The position numbers and the translations under genes were made by a program. A DNA stretch of 64,000 nt, from NCBI GenBank assembly GCA_019054805.1, contig JAHQIY010000003.1, forward strand, positions 6,758,001 through 6,822,000, in the 5' to 3' direction. Below the pieces are notes generated by a model that saw nothing but the letters and a program-made list of their open reading frames with translations, made no database searches and was not told the DNA's origin. Of the stretch, positions 1 through 54,287 are shown piece after piece (the first letter of the stretch is position 1; each line of letters begins with the position of its first letter). This DNA comes from Brachionus manjavacas. Lineage: Eukaryota > Rotifera > Eurotatoria > Ploima > Brachionidae.

Positions 1-3000
1 AAATTCGGAGAGACTTTTCGCCGGACATTTTTCCTATAATAGAGAACTTGATCAGCCTTCCAATAAGCTTTCTCGCGGAAAATATGTTTTGAATGCTAAC
101 TTCGGCTCCGAGACATATAAGAATTGTGAGTTAAACATTGAATCTAAGCAAAATTATTACAATAAATTGGAATGTAAAATAAAATCAAGCAAACTTCCGG
201 TTGAATTGAGCTATGGTTTTTCTCTAAAAGCCGATGGTGCTAAAGATCTCCCAGATGGAAAAAGAGACATTGAAATCACAGTTAATTTGCCAACAACAAG
301 ACAACTTAGAATTGAATATCAATCTAATCGTGCTTTACTCACTGATAAGCAATTTGATGACGATGACGACTATAATAATGAACGTGAATTTTCATCTGAT
401 ATCAAATATTTTTGGGATTATGGTAAAGATAGTTCAAAAGTTTTACGATTGTCTGTTAAACGTGATAACTATGGCAAGACTAATACAAAAATAAGTGCCG
501 AAGTGATCAGTCCATCGTTTAAATCATTGAAATTCAATATTGATCGAAAAAGACTTTCTAACGAAACTCAGTTAGATGCAAGTTTTTCGTATTTGCTCCC
601 AAACAATGTCCAAAATGAGATTCAATTTTATTCAAGACTTTCATCTGATTTTGAATCAAATCAATTTTCAGTCGAATTAAATTTAGCCAGACCTTCTTTT
701 AACATACAATATGAAAACAAATTTAACAAACTTAATGGTCGACTAAGATTCCTATCAATTAGACTAGCAAATTTGCTTAAATTCTCGGTCGATAAAGAAT
801 ATGATCCAGATAACCGTTTGATACGTCTCGAACTCGTTAGTCCTAACGATTCAGAGTTTATTGCCGAATCTTCAAGTGAATTAAAGACTGGTAATGTTTA
901 TGTTGTAAAATCAATTCTTAAAGAAAAGTCGACTGGCCAAACTTTATCGGCCCTAGAGAGCAGTTTTGATTCCAACAATAATGTCTTTGACATAAATTTA
1001 GATGCAATACAAGCAGGACAAAAATACAATTTAATTGTTGGTATTTACAATGAATCATTGGCGAACGCTGCAATAAAGCACATAACAAATAATAATCAAA
1101 TAATGGGTGTCGGTTCATTGCAGATTGTAAACATTTATGATCAGGAAATTACAAATGATAATGACAACAGATATTTGCAATTGAGTCTTAAATGGAATCG
1201 ACTTTGGAACAAGATTTATGGCGATATCTTAGCCAATCAAGTCAGCGAGTCAAGAGCCTCTGAAAACAAAAAATTCAATTCCTACTTCGGAGATGTATAT
1301 GGTTCATTTATTGGCGATTTAAAAGAAACATATGACAAAATTAAAATTGATCGAAAGCAAGTACGAGGTGAATTGAAGCAGCTAGGTTTATTGATTGTAG
1401 ATTTCTATTCGAACTTTTTGCCATCTAATGCAAAAAATAGATTAGTTAATCAATTTAAATACAATCAAGATCAAGATGACCAAGAAGAAAAAATTTTGGA
1501 TGAGCTTCCACTTCATAAGCGCATATTCGTGAAATATAACGCATTTGCCAAGAAAGTTAATAAGCTTCACTTCAAAATTAGAAAACTCTCTAAAACATTA
1601 GCAAGATTTATTCCAAGGCTAACGATGATTTCTTACAACAACCAAAACCAATTAGACCGAGTAGCTCGACATTTTGATAACACTTTAGTTGCGCAGCGTC
1701 CGATTTACAACGCTCGTAATTTGTATCAGTTTAATGCAGAATATAGAGATACGCTAAGAAAATTAGGAAACAGAATCCTATCTGTTAAATCTAATTTGCT
1801 ACGCAACATTCAGGGTGCAAATATACGATCATTGATAAATAAATATAAACCAAGATCTCTAAATGATTATACGATTGCAGGCCATATTTTCAACAGAAGA
1901 AATTTGGTTACATATAATGGAGAATCAAGACTCCTAAAATCCCGGTGCAAATTCTTGTTGGCCCACGAACTAACTAGAAATCAATTTAGCGTAATATTAA
2001 ATAGTTACGTTGATAAATCTTGGCTCAGTGTAAGCGCTTACGGCCAACCTTCAATTGATATAACTCCGAATTCGGCCTCGATTAACAAAAGACCTCTATC
2101 ATTGCCACATTCAATTGAAATAAAAGACAAAAAGGCCAGAATTGTTGTAAAGAGATCGTTTAACTCCGTTTCTGTTGAAGTTAATAATGATTTACTAGTT
2201 ACTTGTTATGAAGATTCAAAAAGTTGTAGTGTTGCTTTGACAAGGTGGTATACAGGCAAGGTGAATGGATTATTAGGCAAGTCAAATTACAACTCGGAAC
2301 AAGTCGAAGAGGACTATTGGTTTTTGGACAATTCATGCCGATTGCCAAATTTTCAAATGAGAAATCCGAGTGATGAAGCTGTTAAGGTTTGCTATTCAAT
2401 ATTTGGCAAACATAGAAAGGCCATTTTTAGAAATGCAATACAAGTAAATTGTTAAGAAATTGTTTCTTATTTTCATTTAATTTTACCATAAAGGCGATTA
2501 ACCCAATTGGTTGGCAACGATTATGTGAGTTAGCTGTAAACGCTGATTCTAACAACAAGTGCCCAGTAATGAAAGCTTTTGCAAATCATGCCAGACTCCA
2601 GTCTATTGATGTGAATGAGCCCAACGAATGCTGTAAATATTCGAAATTAAATAATTTTGCTCAATTTTTTAATTTTTTAAATATAATTTATTGAAGATAA
2701 TTGTCAAGCAAAAGGGAAATCATTTTATATAGGTCAAAAACCTTCAAGCTCATCAGCTAATTTATTCGATAAAGGAAATGATTATGTTTTTGTTCTATTA
2801 CCATGTGATAAATCGAAATATTCAATTGACTTGTCATCAAGCGCTCGAAAATTGTTGGCTAAGCAGCGTAACTTTCTATTTTGAATGAATTTTCATTCAA
2901 TTGAGTTATATTTTTTTAATTTATTTTTTCCTTTTAATAGCTCAAAACCGATACTACTTTGTTAAAGTACTTGGAAATAATGGCGCATCAGTTTACCAAT

Positions 3001-3602
3001 CTGAATATGGTCAAACATTTAATTTTGATGTTAAAAAGGCATATCAATCGATAGCTGAGGACCAGACAAGCAATATTCAAAAGGATGATCTCTACAATGC
3101 TTTGTTTCTTGCTGGTAGTTTGTTTACAAATCGATTGGCTCAAAATCGTCACTTGATTATTGTTGGCTGTGGTAACTGTGTTGAATACTCAAGTAAAGCT
3201 GCTGTTTTGTTGGAAAGATTGTTATCAAAGCGAAACATTGTTGTGAGTTCTTGGGACGATTACAATATTGCCGATCCGGATTTGTTTGGTGAGAACATAA
3301 TTGGGTATGGCCAAAACAAAGTCTTCTTAACCCAACAAGGATCACTTGGAGTCGACGAAGATTCCTTTGAAAGCTATCGTTTCGAACACAGGCTTGATTT
3401 ATGTACAAGACTTGCAACCAAAACCAATGGAAACGTTTTTAACATAAATTTTATCAGAAAACCACAGGTATTTGAACAGGTTGCTGAAAAATTAGCTAAG
3501 ATGGAATCCAGGCAAACTTCACAATTGAAAACTTGTGAAAGAGTCGAAACACCTTTTGGTGATGTTGATGATTTTTCATTTAAAAACGTTAGATCAGATT
3601 AA
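1..3602 (+). CDS. Large lipid transfer protein, copy 1 (3' part only)
   Basis: This is the C-terminal part of an apolipophorin-like large lipid transfer protein, cut by the left edge. Deduced exons are <1-2443, 2494-2632, 2697-2867 and 2941-3602, matching the last four exons of the full copy. The first exon ends in a von Willebrand type D (VWD) domain at about 1940-2340, with the typical GLLG motif and scattered cysteines. The last exon encodes a Cys-containing C-terminal domain ending at the stop 3600-3602. No frameshift or stop separates it from the full copy, so it is probably the tail of an intact gene starting left of the window. Products of the two copies should be almost identical here. 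The role, lipid carriage in body fluid or yolk supply, is inferred from the family. Confidence 0.9.
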
Positions 3603-3673
3603 ATTGAATCAAACTTTTTTTTGATTTTTAAATTTTGATATTGTTTTAGTATTAGACATTTACGTTTATTTGA

Positions 3674-3679
3674 AATAAA
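3674..3679 (+). promoter_or_regulatory. Poly(A) signal AATAAA, lipid transfer copy 1
   Basis: AATAAA lies 72 bp after the stop codon and is conserved in copy 2 at 15630-15635. It sits in AT-rich DNA, so the motif alone is weak; its position just after the stop supports it. Confidence 0.5.
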
Positions 3680-5375
3680 TTTTTATGAGCATTCAAAAAT
3701 ATTTTTCCTCTTATTTTAATAACAAACTGAAAATCAAACAAAGCACCTTTTTTTTAAATTTTTGTTCCTAAATTTTAAAATCATAAGTTTTAAAACATAT
3801 TCTCTTCTTCAATTTAAAAGGCTTTATATTAATACGTAGAGTTTCTAAGAAAAATAGAAAATCATTGGTATTTTTAAACATATGTGGAAGAAGCAATTCA
3901 ATTATTAATTAATATTTTAATTAAATCTTAATAATTTTAATTAACTTCAAATAAAAATTTTTTTTTTTAAATTTTGGTTCATTTTCAAATTTTTTTTTAC
4001 ATTCGATGATTTCTTTGAATAAGCAATCGTTCAAGGCAATATTTTTGATTCTAGCCACCTTAAAAGAATGCTAATTTTGAAAAATTGTCTTGCTTCTGAA
4101 CGAATTGAGTAAATTTTAATATTTCGTTTGTTTAAAAAAAGGCTCCTAATAAATAAATTCGTTATGAAAGATGCTTCAAGAATTTTGTAATTTATTTCAT
4201 AAAAATCATTGTTAATGACGTTTGTGATCAAAATCAGATTCTAGAAAATTGATCCTTTTACAATAGATCTTTTTACTTACTGATTAAAGATATTTAAATT
4301 TTTAGCAAAATAAAATTAAACTCTTTCTATTTCACTAAAAATTTTAATTTCAAATATAAAAATTCTTGCAATATTAACTTTTAATTTTTTCTATTAGAGT
4401 ACATACATTTTGTAATTTAAACACAAAAAATTAAAACTTTTTAATTTTATTTAATTGCTAATATTTTATTTGTGTCTTCTGCTAGATCTGGGCAATAATC
4501 GAAAAAAATATTTAAGGTGATCTTAAAATTTATAATTAAAAAGTGCCAACATAAAACAAAAAATACATTTTGATGATTTCTGTTTTTAAATTTTTTTAAT
4601 TTAATAAATATCTAATATTTTATTAATATTATATTTAATTTGATAAAAATTCACATAAAAATACGAATTTCTTTACTAGATTGATGTTCTTACATTTTAA
4701 ATATTATTCCTACCTATTTGGTATTTTAAGGACCCTTAGCTGGGAACAGTAAACAAATAAATTCTGTGATGTTACTTAAATTTATCCATGTAAATTAAAT
4801 TGACAGTTTTTCGTAATTTACTAAAGAAATAACAGAGAAAATTATATGATAGAGCAAGTTTTCTTGGAAGATCAGTTAACTTTAAAATTTACTGGTTTAA
4901 ATAATTTACTATATCATGGACAATAAATAAAAAAATTTTCCTTTTAATTTTCAAGATCTGTCCTCCATATTCAATTAACAAGGAAAAGTAAAAGATATTT
5001 TGATTTTACTCTAAAGTGTAAAAATAAAAGAGAAAACTACAAATATGTCGAAATTTCATCAAGCTTTACTCTAATTTCTTCTAATTAAGCTTTTAAAAAT
5101 CAAAAAATCAAAAATAAAATATGCAAATATATTGATTAAATTATAATTTACTACCAGGAGAAAAAAACTGGTTGCTTAAAAGACTTTTTAATAAACCTTA
5201 ATTTTAACTTGCATTAAAATTTGAATGGCATTTGATTTAAAATGTACCTTATTCAAGATAAAAAAAATGTTTAATGTAGACAAGATTCGAAAAAAAATTT
5301 CAAGTGCATACTAGAATTGATAACAAAATTTAAAAAAATTGGACTTTTGATATCTTATCAAATGAATATGTTGAA
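3680..5375. other. Intergenic DNA between the two lipid transfer copies
   Basis: This is very AT-rich, with homopolymer runs and no coding frame I can support. 3680-4546 is duplicated 3' flank; 4547-5375 is unit-2 upstream DNA. The duplication junction lies at 4546/4547. Confidence 0.6.
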
Positions 5376-5409
5376 TATAAATATGAGCAAATTTTAAAAT
5401 GTTTTTCAG
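5376..5409 (+). promoter_or_regulatory. Candidate core promoter of lipid transfer copy 2
   Basis: TATAAATA at 5376-5383 is followed 32 bp later by TCAG (5406-5409), which fits an initiator with the A at 5408. That spacing matches animal TATA/Inr promoters and would give an 87-base 5' leader before the ATG at 5495. TTTTTCAG at 5402-5409 also looks like a 3' splice site, so a 5'-UTR intron or spliced-leader acceptor is an alternative. Confidence 0.45.
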
Positions 5410-5494
5410 CAACAACAAAAAGAAATAATACAAAAGCCAAAAAGTAAAATAGAATAGATCGAATATTCAATTTTGATTAAACAAGTGCTCAAAA

Positions 5495-8400
5495 ATGTTA
5501 GGAAATAGAAACTATTTCCTGCTAGTTGTTTGCTTTTGTTTATTGCAATCAGTATTATTGGCACCTTTGGCTGAGCCAAATGTAAGTGAGGATTTTTGTT
5601 CGGGAGACGATTTTTTGCGCTACGAAAATGGAAAAGAGTACTCGTACGAATACAATACACAAACAGATTTATGGATAAATGATGTTTCTGAAGAGTCTAG
5701 GTCAAGAGTCGAATTGAAAGCTAGAGTATTTGTGCGAAGTGTTGGACCATGTTTGTATTTGTTGAGGCTTCAAGATTCAAGTCTGGATGGAGAGTCGATT
5801 GATGCAAAAAATGTTCAAAGTGTTTTGCAAAATTTGAATGACTTTTCGGTTCAGTTTAGACTAAACTCAAAAGGTGAATTGGACCCGAATGTGGACTTTT
5901 CTGAAGGTGATTCGGCTTGGTCAAGAAACATAAAACGTGGTATATTGAGTGCATTACAAGTTAGATCGGTGAATGTGTTGAGAGACTTGGATGAATCAAG
6001 TGAATCAAATGATGAAGCAAAATCAGCTGTTGTCTATGAGACTGATGTACTTGGACGATGCAGAACAACCTATTTGGTCAAAGATTCGTCCATTATAAAG
6101 AGAAAATCACTTCAACGATGCACTTTGAATGAGAACAGTAAAACAAGTGCCGTCCAATACGTGCCATACAAAAGCATTCCGGTAAGTTTATGGTCAAGCA
6201 GAATTTAAAAATTTTTTTTTTTTTAATTTTTTTTCTTTTTTGTTAATCTTAAGGAATTTTATCAAGCAAGATTGTTTGTAGAAAAATATGAATGTGATGT
6301 GCAAGTAAAGAATGGAATTGTTGACCAAGTGAAGTGTGACGAACATTCAACATATAAACTGGGCTCTCGAGGCGACAAAGGTGTTCAAGCAGTTGTTAGA
6401 CAATCGCTTAGATATTTGAGTGCATCGAATGGTTACGATAGACGAGCTCAAGGTCCATTTAAAACGCACAATATTCGATTTGAATATACTGACAAATCAG
6501 TAGATGATATGGAATACAAAAACTTTAACATTGATAAGTATTTGAACGATTTGTGTTCATTGGTGAGTAATGGCCAAGGCCTAGAAAATGAACACTCAAA
6601 CAACTTTAGAGCTCTAGTGAATACTGTTGAATCAATGTCTGCTAACGATTTGGTCAAATTGTACCGATCAAGTAGCGAAAAATGTAAATTGGCCAGTTTG
6701 ACTGTTTTACAAAGTTTTGTTTTTGCCAATTCGGAAAAGTCATTCGAAGTTGTTTTGAAATTGATGGAAGAAAACGCATTTGACGAACAACGCTTGATCA
6801 ATGAATATCCAGTGTTAACTGCTTTGGCAAGACTACAAAAGCCAGGATTAGAATTTTTAGAATATTTAAAATCACATTTAATAAATAAAAATAGTGATTA
6901 TGTCTATATGAACAAATTGTATTTGGTCTATTCATCACTAGTCAAGTCCTATTGTGACACCGATCAGTGTGATCAATCATTATTGGTAAAAATTTTTACA
7001 ATTTTTTGTTTTAAACAAATTCTCTATTATTTCTTTATCATTTACTTATTATTTGCTTATTTTTTGTAAATCTAAATTTTACTAGCTAATTATTTAAAAT
7101 TCCTTTTCATTTATTAAATTTGATTTTTTCAAGAAAAGTTTCAGTGCTTTGTTCGCCAATAATCTTGGAACAAATTGTGCCGACTCGCCAAACAAACATT
7201 TGGTTACTACATCACTCAAGGCTATTGGAAATATTGGCTTTTACAGCGATGTAAACACATTGATTCAATGTGCTTTGAACAACGAGAACAACTTGGAAAC
7301 TAGAGTGTCGGCTGTGCAATCATTTAGACGCTTTGACATAAATACAATTATAAATGCCCAAGGTTTAATTGATTTGCTCAAGAACACCAATGAAGATACT
7401 GAATTGAGAATAAATGCTTTTCAAATTCTGGTCAAATGCATTGAAACCCAACGATTCCAACAATTTGCCCGAAATTCGTTAGTTGACTTGTTGCTCAATG
7501 AAAATGACATTCAAGTAATTTAAAATAAACATTTTAATTTAAAAAATTTATTTCCTTAATTTATTTGATCAATTTTTTCCTTTTCTTAATTAAGCTATTC
7601 ACATATGTTGTCGATTATGCACGCGAGCGTGGCTTGACCATATTGTTGAATCCGATAATGTCTAATCCTGAATTGAAAGAAAAATTCTCGGTCAATTTTA
7701 AAGAATTGTCCTGGAACAATTTCAAATACAGATATTCGCTTAGCAGAGATGGTGCATTCGAATTGGACACATCTGTCATTTACGTTAGTGATAGATCTTT
7801 CATTCCGAGAAGTATTCGTCTAAATGCCACATTTCACATGTTCGGAATGTCTATAAATTTTGCTGATATTACATTGCGAACCGAGGGACTAGAGGATATT
7901 TTGAAATCGGTTCTAATTGATAAGCTAACATCAGAACAACTATTGAAGCGTCTCATGTCACAGCCAGAGCAAATAATTGACATCGTTCAAGCGATTGCTG
8001 ATAAGGTTTTTTTTTTTTACTTTTTTTTTCTATTCGCAAAATCCTGATCAATTTTATTTCCATTAAAAGCTCAAATATACCAAAGACAAACCATTCATGT
8101 CAATTTTGGTTCGAGTCTATGGATCAGATGTTTTCTACTCCGAACTGGACACTATTTATAAGTTGAAGCGTTTGTCTGACTTTTTGAGGAATCCACGTGA
8201 ACATTTACTTTATTCTCAAGTAAATACAATCAAAAACATGTTTTTGATTGATTCAAGAGTAAGACAACCACTAATGAATGGCTTTGAATTCAATACCTTT
8301 ATGGATACTACTTTTGGTTTGTTGTTGATAAAACAAAGCTCAAAATCAGAGTCAAACGATTTGAGAAATTTCAAAATCGACAACTTTTACAGGTAATTTT

Positions 8401-11400
8401 ATTTTCAATTGTAGACTTGAAAAATCCAACATTTAATTTAAATTTTGTTTTATTTTTAGTGCTTCATTGGCTGTAAACAGACGATTTGAAGTCCAAATAA
8501 ATAAAGACAATAAACTTGCGTTGAAGAAGAAGGCATTTATGAATGCCAGGCTTAGACTTGACATTAATGGCCAGAAAAAAGCCGACTCAGTTGAATACAA
8601 TTGGAATTTGACTCCATTAAGAGAAATACCATTGCTTGTCTTGGAGTACGATACATAAAATTTCATCAAAGTTTAAAATTGTGCTAATTTTTTTTTCACT
8701 CTTTAAAGTGGAAAATTTTACAAACTATCTAATGGGCAGTATAATGAGGTAAAAAAATTTGATGTAGACAGACGCGCATATCAAAATTGTACAAGCAGCA
8801 ACTTTCATAATGGCCTCGGCATTGATCTGTGCTTATCAATTGATAGACCAAAACAAGGTTCACTCTGGGATGCTCTTAAGCCAGTTGATTTTGACAGAGT
8901 TTTGAACAATTTCAACGACCAAGATGACGAAACAGACGATGAAGATGAAGAACAAAGCATCTATGGTAATGCGAATAGACCAAAACTAGTCTTGTCTGGT
9001 CCATATCGCTACGAAGTAATTTATTTAAATTTTAAAAAGATTCAAATTCTTGCCAGTTTCTAATTGATTATTACTTTTCTAAATCATAAATACTATTTTT
9101 TTACTAAATATCTGAATTAATTTGAAGATAACACTCAAAAATCCTGAAAATGTTCGAACAATTAGTCTTAGTGGAAATCGTGTAAAAACAGAAAACTCGA
9201 AAACTCTCAATGCCTTTTTACAAACAATATCTAATTCAAACCAAGTAACCAAGAGAATGCAATTTACATACTCGAGTAAGTTTTTCAAAAATGATATTCA
9301 AGATAACTAATTAACTAAATAATCAAAAAATTAAGGGAGCAGACAGGATACAAATAGAGGCATTCATAGACATTTAAACATTGAGTTGAAAAATCTTCAA
9401 AGCAATGATGTCCGATTTAAATTATCAAGCGATATTGTGTATAAAAAACAAGAAGCCTTGAGTGCAAAATTGTTGTTGCAAAACAAAATTTTGAGAGAAT
9501 TAGACTTGAATCTTGAATTAACAAGGGAAAAAAATGCAGAAAATGTAGTACCAACATATAAAATTGAATTGTTGCTTGATTCTAAATTGAGACAACACAA
9601 GTATAGACGATTCTTATTAAATGTCTCGCCACAAGGTAAAGACATTCTATCAAACTTGGTCATTGAGAAATTAAGCGAAAATACCGACTTTAAAATGGAA
9701 AAGATTGCAGATGCAAGCTTGAGCCTAAGATCTAGATCAGGTGCAAAATATGACTATGATGTTGACTTTAAGATGCAAACAAAAAGACCTTCATCTTTGA
9801 GTGTTACAGGCGTTTTTTCTTTTGATTTATTGAAATCAAATTTAGACTTATCTGCAATATACTCTGGTCCTCGTTTCACATTAGTTTCTCCGGTCATTAT
9901 TCGACTTTCGCATGCTTTCGATTTATCATCGCCGAATGCTAAATCTCATGTTCAAATGGGTGTTAAATATGAACCTAAAAATGTTGATCATAGTGTTAAG
10001 ATTTTATTCAAAGCTGATCCTATCGCATTAACCCTTAATCATTTGGAAGCTCAAGTTCAAACACCCAAGACACAAAGCTCTTCACCGTACATAGTCTTTT
10101 TTACCAAAGAAATAAAAGACCAACAGCCTAATTCAAAAGAAGTTCATGTTCGAATTGGAGTTGATAATTTTGCAATTGATTTGTCCACAAGAGAAAGCAA
10201 AATTGCTAAATCCTTAACAAAACTAGACTCTAATAATTTAATCAAGTCGATTACACTCGATTATGTACGAAATGTTGACCAAAATTCAAATAAAAGAAAT
10301 TTAAAGTTGTCTCTCAGTAAAAATGATGCCGAGTTTGTTGTTGTCGAATCAACTTTAAATGGATGCTTGGATCGCGTTAGATCGAACCCTAATGAGGTGC
10401 CAAGACAATCTTTGAGTTCTTCACTTCAAATAAAAGTTTTTGAAAACTCTGCTGGCGTTACAACTCAATTAGATTTTGAGAGTTCTGTTCAAAAGAGGCA
10501 ACATTTTATGAATTTTGACTTAAAAACTGATGGTTTGCTTAGAATATTAATCAAGGTCTTGTCGATCGAGACCAAACTATCGGTTAATGGACCTAGAATT
10601 GATGCCCAATTTGAAATGAAAAAAATTGGCGAAGTAAGAAGCTTTGGCTTAAAAACCAAACCAAATTCACAAATAAGACAAAGCACTGGTGGATTCAACG
10701 AATTCGATGTAGATTATGTTAAAGTTTTGGGTGGCAATATAAAAGTTACATCATCTGGCGTTGTCAAATATAAATTTGTTAATTTAAAAAATTTCGAATC
10801 TTCTCTAAATATGCCAGGCAATTTTAGATATCAATTAGTTTTTAAAAATGAACGAAGATTAAGTGATAAATTTTTTGGAGTTCATGAATTTCGCTTAAAT
10901 TATGCGCATCTTGATGCCCAACAAACTGAAAAGAGATTTGCAAGTATTTATTGATGGTGAAAATCAACCAAATGGTCTTGTTTTTAATATTTTGGCTAAA
11001 AAAGGTCAACCCAATACATTAGGAAACGTTGATCAGTTGGATTACATTTTTGATTTGAAAACAAGAAACGTATTTTGGCAATTTGATGGTAAAAAGCGAT
11101 TTGAAAGTGGCCAAAACTTCTTAAAGTTTAAATCAACTAAATTGAATTTTGATTTTGATTTGAAATGTTCTGCATCCACAAATAAACAATCTAATAAATT
11201 CGATTTAAATGCAAGTATTGATGCACAATTTCCGGCCTTAATAAGCGATCCTGGATCTGTTAATTTCTTAAAACATTCACTCGTTATCAGCAAAACTTTG
11301 GATGGTAGTTCAAAATCAATTTCAGGTTCATTGGAATCAGATAATAAGTTTGTAAATCGGGTTTTTAAATCTCTTAGTGTAGACTATTCGAGAAAACCAG

Positions 11401-14400
11401 TTAATTCTGATATGACGAATATAAATGCAAAGGTTAATCTTGTCAATGCGAATGATCAGTCAAAGTTTATCGATATATATATTCAGCGAACGCACTGTGT
11501 AAATAGTTCAACAAGAGATGTAATCGAAAGTGATGAAGTTGAAGATTCAGAAGAGGATGTGATTGATAGCAATGAAAATTTAAAAAAACTTTGTTCTGGA
11601 ACAAAATTAAATTTAAAGCAAAATATTTTAACAAGCTTGGATTCTCGTATAATTGAAGGCAAAACATTTGACACATCTGATTGCTCGCTTGAAACAAAAT
11701 TGATTAGAAGCAAGGAAATCAATCCCTCTTACAAATACCTTTTGGATGTTTTACTTTCTGCAGAATGTAAGAATATCGTATTTTTAAAAGATGCCCTGAC
11801 AATTAAAAGATCATCCGACAAAAATAGAGATGGTCAAAAATCTACCGATTTGATTCTACACTTACAATCTGATTTGTACTTCCAATCAAGACACATTGAG
11901 ATAAAGCATAAGAAATTTTACTCAAAAAGTGGCTCACTTGAGATTCAATGGGATAGAAATTCGGAGAGACTTTTCGCCGGACATTTTTCCTATAATAGAG
12001 AACTTGATCAGCCTTCCAATAAGCTTTCTCGCGGAAAATATGTTTTGAATGCTAACTTCGGCTCCGAGACATATAAGAATTGTGAGTTAAACATTGAATC
12101 TAAGCAAAATTATTACAATAAATTGGAATGTAAAATAAAATCAAGCAAACTTCCGGTTGAATTGAGCTATGGTTTTTCTCTAAAAGCCGATGGTGCTAAA
12201 GATCTCCCAGATGGAAAAAGAGACATTGAAATCACAGTTAATTTGCCAACAACAAGACAACTTAGAATTGAATATCAATCTAATCGTGCTTTACTCACTG
12301 ATAAGCAATTTGATGACGATGACGACTATAATAATGAACGTGAATTTTCATCTGATATCAAATATTTTTGGGATTATGGTAAAGATAGTTCAAAAGTTTT
12401 ACGATTGTCTGTTAAACGTGATAACTATGGCAAGACTAATACAAAAATAAGTGCCGAAGTGATCAGTCCATCGTTTAAATCATTGAAATTCAATATTGAT
12501 CGAAAAAGACTTTCTAACGAAACTCAGTTAGATGCAAGTTTTTCGTATTTGCTCCCAAACAATGTCCAAAATGAGATTCAATTTTATTCAAGACTTTCAT
12601 CTGATTTTGAATCAAATCAATTTTCAGTCGAATTAAATTTAGCCAGACCTTCTTTTAACATACAATATGAAAACAAATTTAACAAACTTAATGGTCGACT
12701 AAGATTCCTATCAATTAGACTAGCAAATTTGCTTAAATTCTCGGTCGATAAAGAATATGATCCAGATAACCGTTTGATACGTCTCGAACTCGTTAGTCCT
12801 AACGATTCAGAGTTTATTGCCGAATCTTCAAGTGAATTAAAGACTGGTAATGTTTATGTTGTAAAATCAATTCTTAAAGAAAAGTCGACTGGCCAAACTT
12901 TATCGGCCCTAGAGAGCAGTTTTGATTCCAACAATAATGTCTTTGACATAAATTTAGATGCAATACAAGCAGGACAAAAATACAATTTAATTGTTGGTAT
13001 TTACAATGAATCATTGGCGAACGCTGCAATAAAGCACATAACAAATAATAATCAAATAATGGGTGTCGGTTCATTGCAGATTGTAAACATTTATGATCAG
13101 GAAATTACAAATGATAATGACAACAGATATTTGCAATTGAGTCTTAAATGGAATCGACTTTGGAACAAGATTTATGGCGATATCTTAGCCAATCAAGTCA
13201 GCGAGTCAAGAGCCTCTGAAAACAAAAAATTCAATTCCTACTTCGGAGATGTATATGGTTCATTTATTGGCGATTTAAAAGAAACATATGACAAAATTAA
13301 AATTGATCGAAAGCAAGTACGAGGTGAATTGAAGCAGCTAGGTTTATTGATTGTAGATTTCTATTCGAACTTTTTGCCATCTAATGCAAAAAATAGATTA
13401 GTTAATCAATTTAAATACAATCAAGATCAAGATGACCAAGAAGAAAAAATTTTGGATGAGCTTCCACTTCATAAGCGCATATTCGTGAAATATAACGCAT
13501 TTGCCAAGAAAGTTAATAAGCTTCACTTCAAAATTAGAAAACTATCTAAAACATTAGCAAGATTTATTCCAAGGCTAACGATGATTTCTTACAACAACCA
13601 AAACCAATTAGACCGAGTAGCTCGACATTTTGATAACACTTTAGTTGCGCAGCGTCCGATTTACAACGCTCGTAATTTGTATCAGTTTAATGCAGAATAT
13701 AGAGATACGCTAAGAAAATTAGGAAACAGAATCCTATCTGTTAAATCTAATTTGCTACGCAACATTCAGGGTGCAAATATACGATCATTGATAAATAAAT
13801 ATAAACCAAGATCTCTAAATGATTATACGATTGCAGGCCATATTTTCAACAGAAGAAATTTGGTTACATATAATGGAGAATCAAGACTCCTAAAATCCCG
13901 GTGCAAATTCTTGTTGGCCCACGAACTAACTAGAAATCAATTTAGCGTAATATTAAATAGTTACGTTGATAAATCTTGGCTCAGTGTAAGCGCTTACGGC
14001 CAACCTTCAATTGATATAACTCCGAATTCGGCCTCGATTAACAAAAGACCTCTATCATTGCCACATTCAATTGAAATAAAAGACAAAAAGGCCAGAATTG
14101 TTGTAAAGAGATCGTTTAACTCCGTTTCTGTTGAAGTTAATAATGATTTACTAGTTACTTGTTATGAAGATTCAAAAAGTTGTAGTGTTGCTTTGACAAG
14201 GTGGTATACAGGCAAGGTGAATGGATTATTAGGCAAGTCAAATTACAACTCGGAACAAGTCGAAGAGGACTATTGGTTTTTGGACAATTCATGCCGATTG
14301 CCAAATTTTCAAATGAGAAATCCGAGTGATGAAGCTGTTAAGGTTTGCTATTCAATATTTGGCAAACATAGAAAGGCCATTTTTAGAAATGCAATACAAG

Positions 14401-15559
14401 TAAATTGTTAAGAAATTGTTTCTTATTTTCATTTAATTTTACCATAAAGGCGATTAACCCAATTGGTTGGCAACGATTATGTGAGTTAGCTGTAAACGCT
14501 GATTCTAACAACAAGTGCCCAGTAATGAAAGCTTTTGCAAATCATGCCAGACTCCAGTCTATTGATGTGAATGAGCCCAACGAATGCTGTAAATATTCGA
14601 AATTAAATAATTTTGCTCAATTTTTTTAATTTTTTAAATATAATTTATTGAAGATAATTGTCAAGCAAAAGGGAAATCATTTTATATAGGTCAAAAACCT
14701 TCAAGCTCATCAGCTAATTTATTCGATAAAGGAAATGATTATGTTTTTGTTCTATTACCATGTGATAAATCGAAATATTCAATTGACTTGTCATCAAGCG
14801 CTCGAAAATTGTTGGCTAAGCAGCGTAACTTTCTATTTTGAATGAATTTTCATTCAATTGAGTTATATTTTTTTAATTTATTTTTTCCTTTTAATAGCTC
14901 AAAACCGATACTACTTTGTTAAAGTACTTGGAAATAATGGCGCATCAGTTTACCAATCTGAATATGGTCAAACATTTAATTTTGATGTTAAAAAGGCATA
15001 TCAATCGATAGCTGAGGACCAGACAAGCAATATTCAAAAGGATGATCTCTACAATGCTTTGTTTCTTGCTGGTAGTTTGTTTACAAATCGATTGGCTCAA
15101 AATCGTCACTTGATTATTGTTGGCTGTGGTAACTGTGTTGAATACTCAAGTAAAGCTGCTGTTTTGTTGGAAAGATTGTTATCAAAGCGAAACATTGTTG
15201 TGAGTTCTTGGGACGATTACAATATTGCCGATCCGGATTTGTTTGGTGAGAACATAATTGGGTATGGCCAAAACAAAGTCTTCTTAACCCAACAAGGATC
15301 ACTTGGAGTCGACGAAGATTCCTTTGAAAGCTATCGTTTCGAACACAGGCTTGATTTATGTACAAGACTTGCAACCAAAACCAATGGAAACGTTTTTAAC
15401 ATAAATTTTATCAGAAAACCACAGGTATTTGAACAGGTTGCTGAAAAATTAGCTAAGATGGAATCCAGGCAAACTTCACAATTGAAAACTTGTGAAAGAG
15501 TCGAAACACCTTTTGGTGATGTTGATGATTTTTCATTTAAAAACGTTAGATCAGATTAA
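5495..15559 (+). CDS. Large lipid transfer protein (apolipophorin/vitellogenin-like), full copy
   Basis: This is a secreted lipid carrier of the large lipid transfer protein superfamily. Deduced exons: 5495-6181, 6254-6985, 7134-7514, 7595-8005, 8070-8392, 8460-8645, 8709-9015, 9128-9275, 9336-14399, 14450-14588, 14654-14824 and 14898-15559. Phases agree throughout except for one surplus base inside 10899-10951, where the frame shifts within the 5-kb exon 9. Corrected for that, the product is about 3069 aa, close to the size of insect apolipophorin precursors. It starts with a hydrophobic signal peptide (about residues 5-23), followed by a vitellogenin N-terminal lipid-transport module (exons 1-5), an acidic stretch near 8920-8960, a long beta-rich lipid-binding region, a VWD domain at about 13900-14300 with GLLG, and a Cys-containing C-terminal domain. 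The ATG at 5495 is chosen because it opens the signal peptide. Apolipophorin versus vitellogenin cannot be settled by eye; size and the C-terminal extension favour apolipophorin. Confidence 0.92.
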
Positions 15560-15629
15560 ATTGAATCAAACTTTTTTTGATTTTTAAATTTTGATATTGT
15601 TTTAGTATTAGACATTTACGTTTATTTGA

Positions 15630-15635
15630 AATAAA
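15630..15635 (+). promoter_or_regulatory. Poly(A) signal AATAAA, lipid transfer copy 2
   Basis: AATAAA lies 70 bp after the stop and has a counterpart at 3674-3679 in copy 1. Confidence 0.5.
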
Positions 15636-17164
15636 TTTTTATGAGCATTCAAAAATATTTTTCCTCTTATTTTAATAACAAACTGAAAATCAAACAAAGC
15701 ACCTTTTTTTTAAATTTTTGTTCCTAAATTTTAAAATCATAAGTTTTAAAACATATTCTCTTCTTCAATTTAAAAGGCTTTATATTAATACGTAGAGTTT
15801 CTAAGAAAAATAGAAAATCATTGGTATTTTTAAACATATGTGGAAGAAGCAATTCAATTATTAATTAATATTTTAATTAAATCTTAATAATTTTAATTAA
15901 CTTCAAATAAAAAATTTTTTTTTTAAATTTTGGTTCATTTTCAAATTTTTTTTTACATTCGATGATTTCTTTGAATAAGCAATCGTTCAAGGCAATATTT
16001 TTGATTCTAGCCACCTTAAAAGAATGCTAATTTTGAAAAATTGTCTTGCTTCTGAACGAATTGAGTAAATTTTAATATTTCGTTTGTTTAAAAAAAGGCT
16101 CCTAATAAATAAATTCGTTATGAAAGATGCTTCAAGAATTTTGTAATTTATTTCATAAAAATCATTGTTAATGACGTTTGTGATCAAAATCAGATTCTAG
16201 AAAATTGATCCTTTTACAATAGATCTTTTTACTTACTGATTAAAGATATTTAAATTTTTAGCAAAATAAAATTAAACTCTTTCTATTTCACTAAAAATTT
16301 TAATTTCAAATATAAAAATTCTTGCAATATTAACTTTTAATTTTTTTCTATTAGAGTACATACATTTTGTAATTTAAACACAAAAAATTAAAACTTTTTA
16401 ATTTTATTTAATTGCTAATATTTTATTTGTGTCTTCTGCTAGATCTGGGCAATAATCGAAAAAATATTTAAGGTGATCTTAAAATTTATAATTAAAAAGT
16501 GCAAACAAAAAATAAAAAAACTTTTTAATAATTTCTGTGTATCTATTGAAATATTAATATTTAATAGATATCTAATATCTAAATGTTCATTAACATCCCT
16601 CTTACTCATTTCAATTTTTTCAGCAATCAATTTTATCCAGACTTGTTTTTTAGTCACAAGTTTTAAGTCAGGTCATGACTTTGACTTAAATTTTTTTGAC
16701 TTAGACTTTAAACTGTGACTTTTAAACAAGTCTGATTTTATCTTTTATTATTAATTAAGTGATCAGTTCATTAAAATTAGATTTGAGATGTTTTTTCACA
16801 ATGATTATTTTAAAATCGACCCGACCCTAATAGGTGCGATCAATAACTGTATCTTTACTTTTATCATTGTTTTTTTTTTAATTTAGTTTTAATTTACATC
16901 TTTTCACTAATTTTTGAAATTATTCCAAATTTATAAAAATAAATTCAATTAGATGTGTAAACTTCGATATTAATTTAAAAATTTATTTATAAAAAAACCA
17001 AGATAATGTTAAATTGCTTCTACACTTAATCGTCTTGGAAATAACTTTGCTTTTTAGATTACAAACTAATAGAAAAAAATTTCAAAAATTATAATTTTTT
17101 TGTCGGCTAATTTCATCAATCTAGTTTATCTTAAAAATATTTTTTATCTGAAAAAAACGTTACA
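15636..17164. other. Intergenic, lipid transfer gene to EXOC5
   Basis: 15636-16502 is the duplicated 3' flank; from 16503 the sequence is unique. It is AT-rich with no supportable coding frame. Short GTCA/GTGACTT words recur at 16640-16735 (alternating TTTGACTT-like and GTGACTT-like runs), which looks like simple low-complexity expansion. Confidence 0.5.
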
Positions 17165-20100
17165 ATGGCCCATTTGGTTTTAAAGGAAATTGAGCAAGTA
17201 TTGATTAAGTGTTTATTTTTTAACGAAAAATTATCTTTTTTATGCCTATAATAGGAAATATTTAACGTTGATAATTTGATCGAAAACTTAACCTATAAAG
17301 CAACTGATGGACGTGTTGGTCAATCTGATTTTGATTCATTGCTTCTTGAAAACATATTTAAAAAGACCATCGATGATTTGAAAATAATTAATGATAAGAC
17401 TAAGCAAAATATTCGAGCACTAGAGACTGATTGTCAAAGGGAAAAAGAAATTTGTAAAGAGAAAATTTTGCTTCTCGAAAATTCTTACAAAGATTCGTAT
17501 GAATATTTAACTGTTTTAGACAAGCGAATCAGTAATGTATCATCTACCATGTCAGATATGGGATCACAATTGGAAAATTTGAACAGACCTCGGTTAAATT
17601 TATTTGAGTCACACAAGACTGCTAAATATTTTGACAAATTTATGGATGGGATCGACAATAGTGGAGTCTTTGCAGACGACTCCAAATTGGAGCAAGCTGC
17701 TGAAGTAATTTACAAACTTCACCTTTTATCCAATGACTTAACTGATGATAGGTTATCTTTTATCAAATTTCTAAAATTCTTTCCCTAAAATAAAAAAATT
17801 TTTGCTAGATTTCAGAAAGCTAACGGATTAGTCCTTAAAAAGTATTCCGAAATTGAAATAAAGCTTATTCAACGATTTCATGAGGCATTCTACAGAAATG
17901 ATAGAAAAGAAATGAAAAAATGTTTAAATATCCTTTCTAATTTTAAGGTAAATCTTGATGTTAAAATTTTTTATAGAAATCATATTCAATTTTTTTGTTT
18001 AGAACTACCAAGAATGTGTAAACCAATTCATAAAAAATTTACAAATGGTAAATTTATTAAAGATCTGATTTGAAACTTGAATGACGGGCTTAATTTTTAT
18101 AGAGTTTTAAAATTTTAACACGAAAAATTATTTAAATTTAAATTTTATGTTGAAATTAAAAAATTCCATTTAAAAATAAAAAATCTGTCATTTCAGTATT
18201 AGATAATAGATTTTTTAATAAAATTTGTTTTTTAGTCTATGAAAAATTCAAATGATCTATTTTCGGATATAATGCCACTTTGTGTTAAAACAAATGATAT
18301 AATTAATGAAGTTTTTTTGAACAACGAAAGAATAATGGAACAATTTGTTAAAGATCTGTTTTTAGATAGAGTTCAGGTATTTTAAATTTAAATTAAAAAC
18401 TATTAAATTATTCTTCTTAGTTGATTGTATTTAAACAAAATACTTAAATTATAAAAAATTTTATTTAAATTTTGTGTTAAATATTTAAAATTTTGACAAA
18501 ACATAACAATAATTATTTAATCAAAAATGTTAACTTTTTTTTTCCCGTAAAAGTGATAAAAGTTTCAAACCACTTTCAATTCTACTAATTTATGTTGGCT
18601 AATCAATATCAAATTAGGTGAATCAATCAAAAATACCAAAACCATTATAAACAAATTTTTTTTTTTAAATTTGTTTAAGTCAAGAAAACTTATTAAGAAA
18701 AATGGTCAATAGATTTTAGTTCAAAATAGAATTGCTGAAAAATTTAAACTATGTCTTATAAATCGAGAATTTTTGAATAAATAATTTAGTTTAAAAAAAA
18801 AGATAAATAAAAAATTCATAATCTATCAAAAAATCATGAAATATATATTAGATTTCAAAATTTTATTTTGAATAAAAATTTTCACAAATGAAGTTAAAAC
18901 AAATCATTTTGTTTTAATTTTTAAACTAATTTAGTTCGAATATATTTAAATTGAAATTAACTCAGTATAATTGTTAAAGAGATATATTTTTTGCTTTTTT
19001 CATTCAATTTGTTTATTCATTTAATAAATTTTAGATTTATGTAACAACAAATCTCGACAAACATCGAGAAACTGATCTAGAAAAATATCTTGATATGCTT
19101 TATTTGTATTATAACAAGTAATATTTAGACCCACTTGTAAGAAGATAAAATAACTTGTCTCTCAAAGGACCAAGAAAATTTCAAAAGAACTCTCTGAATT
19201 GATGAAGATCTCAAGCGAGAGTACTTTTTTCAGCAAACTATTAAATGAAGTTTTTCAAGTGCATCTAAAAGATTATATTAAGTAAGTACTTGGATTAAAA
19301 TTTTAAAAATAAACCAAATTTTATTAAATTTTTAATTTATTTATTAAAAACATTAAGCCTTGAGAAAACAAATTTGCAAAATAAATTCAAAGCTCATTTG
19401 GAAAGATTTTACGAAAAAATTGGGCATACTAAAAGAACACAATCTGGGTATATTTAAAAATGCTTAAAAAAAAATTTGCTATATTATTTGATTTTAGTTT
19501 TGTGTCTAATCTACTTTCCAAACCTATAAACGAGATAATTGATGATAGATTTTTGTCCCATGATGTGACTACATTATGCATTGATGATGCCAAGAAATCA
19601 ATCAACAGATCACTATTAGTAGGTTCCATTTTCAGATCTGAAATCTCTAACTTTTCTTTCATTTCTTTAAGCTGTGTGATGTTAATAGTCAACCAAAGGC
19701 CATTGACGATATGTTTGAAATAGTTTGTCAAAATCTGTGTCGAGATCACCTTTATTATTCTCTTGACTTGCACATAAATGCTTTGCCTTCGGTCGAATTT
19801 AGACAAGAGTTGAATCTACACATTTTTCCTTTCATCAAACAAATGAACGATTTGATGTATCTTTTTGAACAGTTCACCAATGTCAGTGTTATTCCTCCTG
19901 TTATGTAAGCTAAATATCTATTCTCTTATTTTTTTTATATTCTAACTATAAGGAACTCTCCTTATTATCAGAAAATAATGAACAAGTTAAATCAAATTTG
20001 TACTGATCTGGAAGTAAAAATAGACACGGGTCTGGAAAAGTAGAATTGTAAAATTTTGTTCAAAATTTAATTTATAATGCTAAAATTTAAGAGCATTTAC

Positions 20101-21111: not shown

Positions 21112-24100
21112 ATGAATACTCAAAATGTAAGTAATTTTTTTATTTTTTATTTTTTTTTTAATATTTCGTCAAAGCTCAAAAATTTTAGAAAGTAATATTA
21201 CAATGATCATAGGTTCTAATCATAGGTTTGAGTAGCCTTAAAAGCTACCCAAACTCAACAAAGCCTACTAATCCGAAATGAAGGTTGGAACTCACGATAA
21301 GAATCGTTTACCTCTTTGCACGCTGTAAAGCGATCCAAAAAATCAGTACTTCAAAGTACTGCAGCGCTCCCTTTCGATAACCCAAAAGCAATTTACCACA
21401 GACTAAAGCAATATGCCATGCATTAAATAATTATAAAAAATACATGTAAATATATGATGTAAAAGAGATAAGAGAAAGCTATTAACTTAATAAAAAAAAA
21501 GTTTTAAGATTATTACAAAAAAATCTAAAATAAAAATTTACTAAATTTTTTACTGTTAGAGCATCGTTTACAATGATATGAGTTCCCTAGTGTTAAATTA
21601 AGTTAAAGTTAGCGCAATACTAATTTAATTAAAATAAAAAAATATCTTTTAAATCTGAAAATATCACTGAAAAATAAGCTAGTTATAAATATGAGCTGAA
21701 ATTGAAATTCTAGTTGCCAGAAAGCATCAAAATTTGGAAAAAAGTCCAAGAAGGTTCAAATATTTTGTGCATATTTTTTAGTTTTCTGCTCGAAATACTC
21801 TAGAAATCAGGGGAGCAGTTTAGTCATAAAAGCAAAAATTAACTAAATCTTGGAAAATAGATTGTCAAGCTATTTATAAAAAATCAAATAAAAAATAATG
21901 ATTGAAAAACAAAATTTAGTATAATATATAATTTTTTTATAAATTAGGATGACGTAGAAAATATAGAATCAGATAGTAAAAGTGAGGGGCGATCCTCCAT
22001 AGACACTTTAGAACTTCTCAAAGGTAAGATTATGAAAAAAGGGTCTAAATTAGAACTTAGCTAAATTTATCTAAATTTGAAAGAAAGCAGTGATTTTTCT
22101 GGGGACAAGACTGAAAATAACGAAATTGAAGAAGATCCAAATGATTCCGATACGGATACTCTCAATGACAATAAAGAGTCAGAAAATGATAGCTTATCCT
22201 TCCAAAAAGTTCCTCAGCAGCAAGAACCAACATCCATTGAACACAAAAAACTTGATGATGAGTTTTTTAAAAATTTGAAAAATGATGATGAAATCGATAC
22301 CTCTGACTTGAATCATCTAGAGCCAAAGTTACGCGAAGCTTGGATTCAAATGAGAAAACTGGATAAAAAGTTGTCCCTTGTGATCAAAAAAGAGAAACAA
22401 GTTAAAAGAGAAACAATTGCCTTTATAGAAAAAAATCGAGCAGAGCTAGAGTTACTGAGACTCACTTCTGATCACAAGGAATCAAAATCAGAAGCTGAAA
22501 ATACAGCACATTTTCTTGCTCTAACTAATGTGGATCTGGATGCTGATCCCGAGAACGACTCGGAATCCAATGCTTCTTATTCCAACCTGACCCCAATTTT
22601 TAAGACTCAAGTTTTTGACCAAAACGATAGCATCAATGGCTCGAGAGTCCAAACTCCAAAAACTCCAAAAGCTCCAGATTACTTTGAAAATATGCCATCT
22701 AGTTCAGAGACCTCATCAAATTGCACACAATCGAGCAAGTCCAAGTCTTCGACAAGAGCGAATTCTAAATCCAAAATTAAAAATCAAAAAGGTGCAGACA
22801 AAAACTTCATTCAAAGAAATATCAAGCTAGCTCAAGATACAGGTGGTGTTTTGGCAATGACTGAGGAGGAAAAGCAACGACTTAATGAAATACTACTTGA
22901 TATGGACAATGTGGACGCCAAAAATTCAAGTGTTTCGCAATTAAATCAAGAGAATGTGATGATTGTAGAGTACAATCCGAGATTAGTTGAGTTATCTGAC
23001 GGAGATGGCTTTAAGCCAAATCAAGACGAACTGGAAAAATTGAAACGGATTAATACAGCTTTAGAAAAGCGCAACTATTCCAGGAGTACGATTAGTCGAG
23101 TTAGCGGAATTTCACAGTCTCAATTCAGTTCATACACTGTTGACCAAGATGCATACCATGGACTTTGGGTAAGAAAAATAATTATTAAAGAATTTTTTTA
23201 GTTTTTTTTTTAGTTTTTATTTTTATTCAGGAAAAAATATTTTTTAAATATTTTTAAGTTGCCTTAAAAAATAAGCAATTATTTTAACAATTAGAAGCAA
23301 ATGATTTATTAATTAAGGCGTTGGTTTGACTGTACCGAGCCACATTACTTTTTAAGATTAAAAAAACATTAAAAGATATTAAGGAAAATTTAAAAATATG
23401 GAAAAAAAGATTTTGATGGTTAGGATCTAAAAAGATTTAGATTGATTCAATTTATTTAAGAGGGTTAATTAAATAATCAGTACATAAAAATAGATAGTAA
23501 AGTTAATTACAGAAAAAACACCATCAAAAAAATAAATAAATAATCATTTAAAAAATTTTTTTTTATTTAATAAGATTTATTTAAATTTTTATGCAAGTAA
23601 AAAATAGAAAAATTAAAAAAAGTTTGCAATATATTTTAGTTTTTTTTTTTTAATTTTACTTTTTAATTTAATTTTTTAATTTTAGTTATAATGTTTATTC
23701 TAAAATCTTAATGTATTTATCCTGTTGACATTAAAATTTGGTTAATTCAACTGATTACTTTTTATGTTCTTACAATCAAAGGCTCTTTCTTTTTTCAATT
23801 TATCTCGTTAGTTTGTTTTAATCAATAATTTTTATCTATTTTTATTAACAAAAACGAAACCAAAATGTAATTATTTATAAATATTTGTAATTTGTAATTA
23901 TTAAAAATATAAATATTTGTCCTAAATCTTTGTTTGTGTCCTCGAATATTGTTTGCAGGACCATCCTCTGTAAGGGAATTACATTTAAGTACAGGATGCT
24001 GCCAGGTTACCAAGTTTAGCCGTTTAATACATTTAGAAAACTGTTTAAGGTCTCCTCTTTCTCGTCTCACTTTTAGAGATGTTAAACCGAGCACTACTAA

Positions 24101-30273: not shown

Positions 30274-30594
30274 GGCTGTGAAGTTCGCTCCAATTCAGAA
30301 AAGCTTAAATAACTTTTTTATTAGAAGAGATGAGTTAATTCTGTAAAATGCTTGATTTTAAGTAAATTTGCTCAATAAAATAAAATAAGTCTGCGAAAAA
30401 CTGCAATTCTTTGCATTTTGTACGCTATTAAAAAGTTCTCTAATCAACTGCGCAGTTACTTTGCAGAGTTCCTGAAGACATTTATTTTAAGGTTAAACAA
30501 CAAAGCTTAAAATTAAGCATTTTACAGAAAAAACTTATCACTTTTAATAAAAAAGTTATTTAAGCTTTTCTGAATTGGAACGAACTTCACAGCC
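30274..30594. mobile_element. Foldback MITE, copy 1
   Basis: A 321-bp imperfect palindrome. The outer arms, starting GGCTGTGAAGTTCG at 30274 and ending with its complement at 30594, match over about 50 bp with very few mismatches, and weaker pairing continues almost to the centre. It has no coding capacity. The same family appears at 53911-54287 (full), 46980-47100 and 49850-49990 (partial), which shows that it is a dispersed nonautonomous element. Confidence 0.85.
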
Positions 30595-53910: not shown

Positions 53911-54287
53911 ATCTATAGATAAGGGGTTTTGAAGCTCATTTCAATTCTATCGTTTCAATTCAGAAAAATTTAAATAACTTTTTTACTAAAAATGATAAAT
54001 TAGTTCTGTAAAATGCTTAATTATAAGCAAATTTGCTTAATTTGAAAATACTTTATGTCTGCAAAATACTTTACAATTATCTGCATTTTGCACGCCATTA
54101 AAAAGTATCACAATCAAGTGTGCAATTAGATTGCAGAGTTTTTGCAGACATTTATTTTCGGATTGAGCAAAGTTGCTTAACCATTAAGCATTTTACAAAA
54201 CTAAATTATCTCTTTTATTAAAAAAGTTATTCAAGTTTTTTTGAATAGAAACGATCGAATTGAAAAAAACTTCACCCCTATAGATAA
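53911..54287. mobile_element. Foldback MITE, copy 2
   Basis: About 377 bp. The left end ATCTATAGATAAGGGG...GAAG is answered on the right by CTTCACCCCTATAGAT. The inner arms TTCAATTC...AAATAACTTTTTTA pair with TAAAAAAGTTATTCAAG..., as in copy 1. It is more diverged than 30274-30594 and shares its internal words (TTCTGTAAAATGCTTAATT, GTCTGCAAAA). It lies 188 bp after the SAXO-like stop codon. No coding capacity. Confidence 0.85.

Follow-up and report, generated by a model that had tools for sequence, protein, structure and literature searches.

A 64,000-nt window of the genome of the rotifer Brachionus manjavacas (C3:6758001-6822000, where C3 is contig JAHQIY010000003.1; genome of 114,169,980 bases in 61 contigs) contains one complete copy and the 3' part of a second copy of a gene that encodes a large lipid-transfer protein. 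The ~11.95-kb unit that carries this gene is present six times in the assembly, three times on the plus strand (R1-R3) and three times on the minus strand (L1-L3), with the copies head-to-tail inside each of two inverted arms. The pattern of identity among the six copies suggests that this is probably an old tandem array that has been homogenised by exchange. The array would likely serve the dosage of the animal's main lipid carrier.

Six copies of the unit in two inverted arms

A sequence-only reading of the window had described positions 1-4546 and 11957-16502 as near-identical, and this was borne out by BLAST. The two stretches are alike at an offset of 11,956, and the alignment extended to 1-4618 against 11957-16578 (99.48% identity, 12 mismatches, 11 gap openings). 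The same reading had counted one silent substitution besides homopolymer changes within the shorter pair. The only clean substitution there, at 13544 (equivalent to 1588), is silent; the remaining differences are in homopolymer length, apart from one column, 15914, that is adjacent to a run.

A genome search with window positions 1-4546 returned at least 68 matches, six of them full length, and every full-length match was located on C3. The plus-strand matches start at C3:6746039, 6758001 and 6769957, and those on the minus strand at C3:6681801, 6693754 and 6705695. For the array map, C3:6640001-6800000 was joined with the window and compared with itself. The arms occupy C3:6681752-6716864 and C3:6739413-6774550, are ~35 kb each and 99.2% alike, and are separated by a spacer of ~22.5 kb; the GC content of the array region is 27%, close to the peak of ~25-26% given for a relative in PMC8447722. 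The first unit in the window, copy R2, starts outside it at C3:~6751332. Extension to the left, which had been suggested as a check on whether this unit is complete, revealed a complete unit.

An arrangement of this kind could also be produced by the assembly, if a smaller array were inflated by haplotypes or read foldbacks. Long near-identical repeats are hard to assemble, the homopolymer indels point to a low-quality consensus in the array, and copy number within an arm may have been inflated or collapsed. When a read foldback is the cause, one expects arms that are almost perfectly alike and adjoin directly. In contrast, the two arms are separated by 33 single-nucleotide polymorphisms (SNPs), their outer flanks differ, and of the 22.5-kb spacer, the 8.5 kb that we tested has a single copy except for a ~330-bp dispersed repeat and a 47-base piece (40 of 862 first-look candidates scored). 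We therefore consider an assembly artefact unlikely. The joining of two haplotypes, which the sequence-only reading had offered as one explanation of its pair, is likewise disfavoured, as it fits poorly with three copies in each inverted arm, with the arm-diagnostic SNPs and with a tested spacer part that is largely single copy.

A joint common to both arms and decayed outer edges

A 698-base query across the internal joint matched at 99.1-100% at all four internal joints, in R as well as in L, and gave only fragments at the ends of the array. The ~0.66-kb intergenic stretch at the joint (window ~4619-5277) is complete only at these four places. We infer from these alignments that the duplication breakpoint lies within this stretch. 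Since the internal joint is common to both arms, at least one tandem joint is older than the split of the arms.

This result replaces the single head-to-tail junction that had been proposed at 4546/4547. The joint of the six-copy array lies in ~4619-5277, and position 4546, equivalent to 16502, marks the onset of the divergence of R3 from the internal copies, with the first private substitution at 16503. At the decayed outer edges of the two arms, the identity of the 3' end of R3 to the interior drops from 90 of 90 columns to 59 of 78 (11 mismatches, 8 gap columns), and that of L3 from 86 of 90 columns to 78 of 99 (9 mismatches, 12 gap columns). When gap columns are left out, the decayed edges are 84% (R3) and 90% (L3) alike to the interior, and past them neither R3 nor L3 gave an alignment against the interior. 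At the 5' ends, substitutions private to one copy number 3 in R1 (5285-5324) and 6 in L1 (5324-5395).

Beyond the edges, the flanks of the arms gave no alignment above shuffles over 400 bp on either side. Over 2 kb, the 5' flanks of the two arms scored 256 (shuffle maximum 262), and the outer flanks of R3 and L3 scored 208 (shuffle maximum 166) at 54% identity, which we tentatively take as AT-rich background. A recent single duplication was rejected on account of the common internal joints and the decay of the edges.

Divergence and exchange among the copies

Over ~11.1 kb, the copies differ at 9-19 sites within R, at 19-24 sites within L and at 58-71 sites between arms. Positional counterparts across the arms differ at 65, 63 and 64 sites and are not closer than other between-arm pairs. 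The copies grouped by arm and not by position, with 100 of 100 support for R and for L. This grouping, found despite the common internal joint, suggests that homogenisation took place within the arms after they had separated.

There were 48 clean informative sites, of which 33, among them 12190, 12514 and 15306, are arm-diagnostic. The remainder group L2 with L3 (6 sites), L1 with L3 (2), L1 with L2 (1), R2 with R3 (4) and R1 with R2 (1), and one crosses the arms. In a four-gamete test, 69 of 1,128 site pairs were incompatible, which requires a minimum of 3 exchanges. Thus, in the one genome compared, paralogues within an arm are closer to each other than to the copies at matching positions across the spacer, and they recombine, as is the case in concerted evolution, for which an orthologous locus of a second species usually serves as the test.

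The divergence between the arms is uneven along the unit. Fixed arm differences were found at 28 of 925 columns of the 3' flank (3.0%), at 11 of 9,201 columns of the coding sequence (CDS; 0.12%) and at 2 of 838 intron columns (Fisher test of the 3' flank, p 4e-21 against CDS plus introns and 2e-6 against introns alone). The 28 differences in the 3' flank fall into 12 clusters, so the underlying events are fewer than 28. No fixed difference was present in 468 columns of part of the internal joint (16800-17299), and comparison of the six copies revealed no arm-diagnostic substitution from 5420 to 8350. The simplest reading of this patchy divergence is partial exchange between the arms. Alternatively, the 3' flank, which bears a dispersed repeat, may import changes from elsewhere, and both readings fit our data.

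The dispersed repeat (15925-16426 and 3969-4470) is located where the arms differ most. It accounts for matches to at least 62 other genome pieces at 67-94% identity, within query positions 3904-4471; counts of its matches are lower bounds (40 of 998 first-look candidates scored).

These data bear on a different history, in which an inverted duplicate of one unit arose and the two arms recently expanded to three units, each on its own, with no need for conversion. The clustering of copies by arm and the very low divergence within arms would be expected from such a history. However, independent triplications would not be expected to give the same internal joint in both arms, and the decayed edges, the conflicting SNP groupings within arms and the contrast between 3' flank and CDS also speak against it. 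The common joint already refutes the simple form of this history, and we hold it to be improbable. The very recent amplification that the sequence-only reading had considered therefore does not hold for the whole array, although copy-number turnover inside an arm may be recent. Of the explanations put forward there, ongoing gene conversion is the best supported, by the four-gamete conflicts, the common joints, the decay of the edges and the abrupt shift, from one part of the unit to another, in how far the arms have diverged. Unequal crossing-over would also serve to homogenise copies within arms.

It is also conceivable that purifying selection alone keeps old copies near identical, given the length of the gene and its probable importance. 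Yet introns and part of the internal joint are about as conserved between the arms as the exons, and the SNP conflicts require exchange. Among the copies we counted 25 nonsynonymous and 12 synonymous substitutions in the CDS (7,304 and 1,903 sites), and the fixed arm differences comprise 9 nonsynonymous and 2 synonymous changes, where site counts give a neutral expectation of 3.8 to 1. We regard selection without exchange as very improbable.

The gene and its protein

The gene has 12 exons (5495-6181, 6254-6985, 7134-7514, 7595-8005, 8070-8392, 8460-8645, 8709-9015, 9128-9275, 9336-14399, 14450-14588, 14654-14824 and 14898-15559). Splice sites were picked by eye, all are GT-AG, and the frame is open throughout in the six-copy consensus. 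The consensus protein has 3,069 aa and begins with a hydrophobic stretch resembling a signal peptide.

Pfam searches of the consensus protein identified the large lipid transfer module, Vitellogenin_N (PF01347), at E 2.9e-51 (175.2 bits against a cut-off of 24; profile positions 1-570 of 590), and the open beta-sheet domain, Vit_open_b-sht (PF09172), at E 3.7e-18 (66.3 bits against a cut-off of 23.7). The earlier description of a giant lipid-transfer gene was therefore correct. A VWD domain is present at the C-terminus (E 7.7e-6, 26.7 bits against a cut-off of 22.9), yet, as VWD occurs in apolipophorin and apolipocrustacein and also in vitellogenin (Vtg), it does not discriminate apolipophorin-type (APO) proteins from Vtg. 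To our knowledge, VWD is absent from vertebrate apoB.

A PDB search with the first 1,009 residues matched three sequences at E up to 1: lamprey lipovitellin (E 4.4e-6), which alone among them belongs to the family, and two of oncostatin M (E 0.49 and 0.54). A PDB search with one single exon gave no match, and fold prediction of the C-terminal 219 residues gave no usable structure (mean predicted local distance difference test score, pLDDT, 39.5).

PMC1783640 gives ~1,600-1,800 aa for classical vitellogenins, a range outside which the 3,069-aa protein falls, and describes DUF1081 as a central-region domain exclusive to APO, at 957-1072 in human apoB. The consensus protein has a sub-threshold match to DUF1081 at residues 994-1062, near the position in human apoB. 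The length and the sub-threshold DUF1081 match point tentatively to a large lipid-transfer protein of the apolipophorin/apolipocrustacein branch.

Coding indels in the assembled copies

Compared with the consensus, R1 has 4 single-base coding indels, R2 3, R3 1, L1 3, L2 3 and L3 2. Each of the 12 sites of exonic indels is a gain or loss of one base in an A/T run of 3-7. In R3, the window's complete copy, the frame is shifted by one A too many at 10929-10932, a change that the sequence-only reading had not mentioned. Runs of the same length vary to a like extent in coding and non-coding DNA: 1 of 147 against 1 of 60 at length 4, 3 of 51 against 2 of 27 at length 5, 5 of 12 against 5 of 14 at length 6, and 2 of 4 against 2 of 3 at length 7. 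This comparison covers 11 of the 12 coding sites, as it starts at runs of 4. No indel site distinguishes the arms, and three of the 12 are seen in copies of both arms, at 8575 (R1, L1), 8751 (R1, L2) and 10619 (R1, R2, L1).

Because the indels lie in A/T runs, vary alike inside and outside the coding sequence and recur across arms, we prefer consensus error to a real break of the gene; the coding indels are probably errors, as such a repeat is difficult to polish. Real slippage would be a less likely source of them.

Relatives elsewhere in the genome

Proteins of the large lipid-transfer family carry lipid outside cells, and MTP loads such proteins. We searched the genome with the family profiles exon by exon. 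Vitellogenin_N gave 19 matches, of which 18 are in the six copies and one is at C16:1875205, where a neighbouring frame matches MTP_lip_bd (E 9.5e-19), identifying an MTP gene. All six Vit_open_b-sht matches fall within the six copies. No gene of the same family besides the six copies and MTP was thus detected in these exon-by-exon profile searches of the whole genome.

A probable history of the array

Together, the results favour the following sequence of events, whose order we infer. An apolipophorin-type large lipid-transfer gene would have been duplicated in tandem long ago in a rotifer of the Brachionus plicatilis complex. The present layout, UBX gene, three units, PDZ gene, three units in inverted orientation and Sec10, may have been reached either through an inverted duplication or through a single inversion that split a six-unit array; we considered both, and the data do not separate them. 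Gene conversion, unequal crossing-over or both would keep the copies near identical, mainly within arms and less between arms; homogenisation would not reach the outer edges or the 3' flank, which would diverge. With six genes, the array likely provides dosage, so that the main extracellular lipid carrier would be made in large amounts, and this carrier would probably load lipid into eggs. High expression and an advantage of dosage would follow from this account.

A number of observations weigh against this account. The DUF1081 match reaches 19.0 bits, below the curated cut-off of 25, with E 0.0019 in a chosen 537-residue piece, and the whole consensus protein gave no DUF1081 match at E 0.001. 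The convertase motif RX[RK]R is absent from the entire consensus protein. All six assembled copies carry 1-4 single-base coding indels, and the 12 sites are confined to 8575-11047 (2.5 kb), which the positions of long runs explain only partly. The substitution ratios of 25:12 and 9:2 are near neutral, so that selection keeping every copy functional is not demonstrated. The 3' edges are still 84% and 90% alike over fewer than 100 columns, which leaves the implied age loose. As the genome was searched exon by exon, a diverged second gene could be missed, and tblastn of the protein at the MTP locus gave nothing significant, showing that the reach of tblastn is short.

Comparison with known systems

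Concerted evolution of yolk-lipoprotein genes is known from mosquitoes. PMC2875236 describes three tandem Vtg genes in Anopheles gambiae, 98.1-99.2% alike and varying in copy number between strains, and converted Vtg pairs in Culex. The mosquito Vtg arrays (PMC2875236) resemble the rotifer array in consisting of large lipid-transfer genes with near-identical copies (98-99% in mosquito) under concerted evolution. In contrast to the Vtg genes, which in An. gambiae are head-to-tail, the rotifer gene is apolipophorin-like, has 12 exons and lies in a pair of inverted three-copy arms, and part of the unit shows signs of exchange between them.

The closest protein for comparison is decapod apolipocrustacein, an APO-type lipid-transfer protein with VWD that is reported to be the major yolk precursor (PMC1783640). 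The rotifer protein, likewise with VWD and putatively of the APO type, has a candidate yolk role only. It differs in length (3,069 against ~2,600 aa), in its sub-threshold DUF1081 and in having no RX(R/K)R, a site given at residue 725/728 in the Penaeus protein (PMC1783640).

Sex-chromosome palindromes, as outlined in PMC3723533 and PMC3403216, have inverted multi-kb arms that are >99% alike and undergo arm-to-arm conversion. The rotifer arms are also inverted, multi-kb and >99% alike; unlike those palindromes, each arm is itself a tandem array, and identity within arms exceeds that between arms. The rotifer array is new in the family branch, in the animal group, and in that its palindrome joins two tandem arrays that apparently exchange at two levels. 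Among the papers listed in searches of the open-licence literature, judged by titles and abstract openings, we saw no apparent description of a rotifer apolipophorin or vitellogenin array.

Possible role in egg provisioning

In PMC2667189, expressed sequence tags (ESTs) of Brachionus plicatilis gave no match to vitellogenin, and lipases were suggested as yolk. The main text of PMC3701536 contains no vitellogenin or apolipo- term. Since the gene is the only one of its kind detected, has six copies and belongs to a genus in whose ESTs vitellogenin was not matched, it is a good candidate for a general lipid carrier and yolk precursor. The sixfold amplified gene is thus a direct candidate for the carrier missing from the Brachionus ESTs. 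A wider proposal, which we advance tentatively and hold at somewhat below even chances, is that monogonont rotifers use an apolipophorin-type protein both as general lipid carrier and as yolk precursor, encoded by a six-gene palindrome of tandem arrays with two layers of exchange, frequent inside the arms and rarer across them, and with a tunable dosage for egg provisioning in animals that are clonal. The locus also suits the measurement of conversion within and between inverted arms in a small animal. The rotifer is clonal for most generations.

Neighbouring genes and features of the window

Outside the left arm lies a UBX-domain gene (UBX E 1.4e-25), which we take for UBXN1, and outside the right arm a gene for Sec10 of the exocyst. 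The gene in the spacer encodes multiple PDZ domains (all 3 frames tested matched, at E 3e-16 to 4e-28) and is GRIP-like by inspection; most of it lies in the 8.5 kb tested for copy number. The ~330-bp spacer element (C3:6720380-6720704) is self-complementary, resembles a miniature inverted-repeat transposable element and occurs in at least 39 other places at 80-96% identity. The features of the array in the window and its right-hand neighbour are listed in Table 1.

Table 1. Window positions of the array features and of the gene to the right of the array.
Feature	Position	Strand	Basis or remark
Gene 3' part, copy R2	1..3603	+	Equivalent to 11957-15559 at offset 11,956; gene model
3' flank of copy R2, with dispersed repeat at ~3969-4470	3604..4618	+	BLAST and genome search
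Intergenic stretch 'i' of the internal joint, ~0.66 kb	4619..5277	+	Complete only where tandem copies meet, at four joints
Terminal copy R3 of the unit	5278..16578	+	Homology to internal copies decays from ~16503
12-exon gene for large lipid-transfer protein	5495..15559	+	GT-AG splice sites, six-copy consensus, Pfam domains
Frame-shifting run of 4 A	10929..10932	+	Other 5 of 6 copies have 3 A; probable consensus error
3' flank of copy R3, with dispersed repeat at ~15925-16426	15560..16502	+	Largest between-arm difference
Decayed outer edge of the right arm	16503..16578	+	Alignment to internal copies
Sec10 (exocyst) exon, right-hand neighbour of the array	17276..17788	+	Sec10_N E 3.9e-15

Other observations

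Rfam and tRNA scans of the 64-kb window gave no matches. An open reading frame of the FSIP1 family (E 1e-24), sperm-tail-related by family name, lies at window positions 22077-23201. Two repeat pairs were also seen in the window, one direct and 79% alike (30285-30583 and 53950-54254), part of which also matches inverted, and one inverted and 73% alike (41026-41607 and 59255-59841).

Elsewhere in the genome, a COX1 match lies in a 667-codon stop-free frame at C21:120555-121901, and C21 may be a bacterial contig. The 26-base primer site of the mate-recognition gene MMR-B, taken from the B. manjavacas primers quoted in PMC2746195, gave one exact match and two matches with one mismatch, and a reversed control gave none. 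The exact match places the genome in the B. plicatilis complex; flow cytometry of clones of B. plicatilis s.s., B. manjavacas and B. 'Nevada' gave sizes of 109-129 Mbp (PMC3087684), in line with the 114-Mb assembly. The three sites lie within 107 kb at C7:5017989-5124088, the plus strand bearing two of them and the minus strand the third, and mark another reproductive gene family in both orientations.

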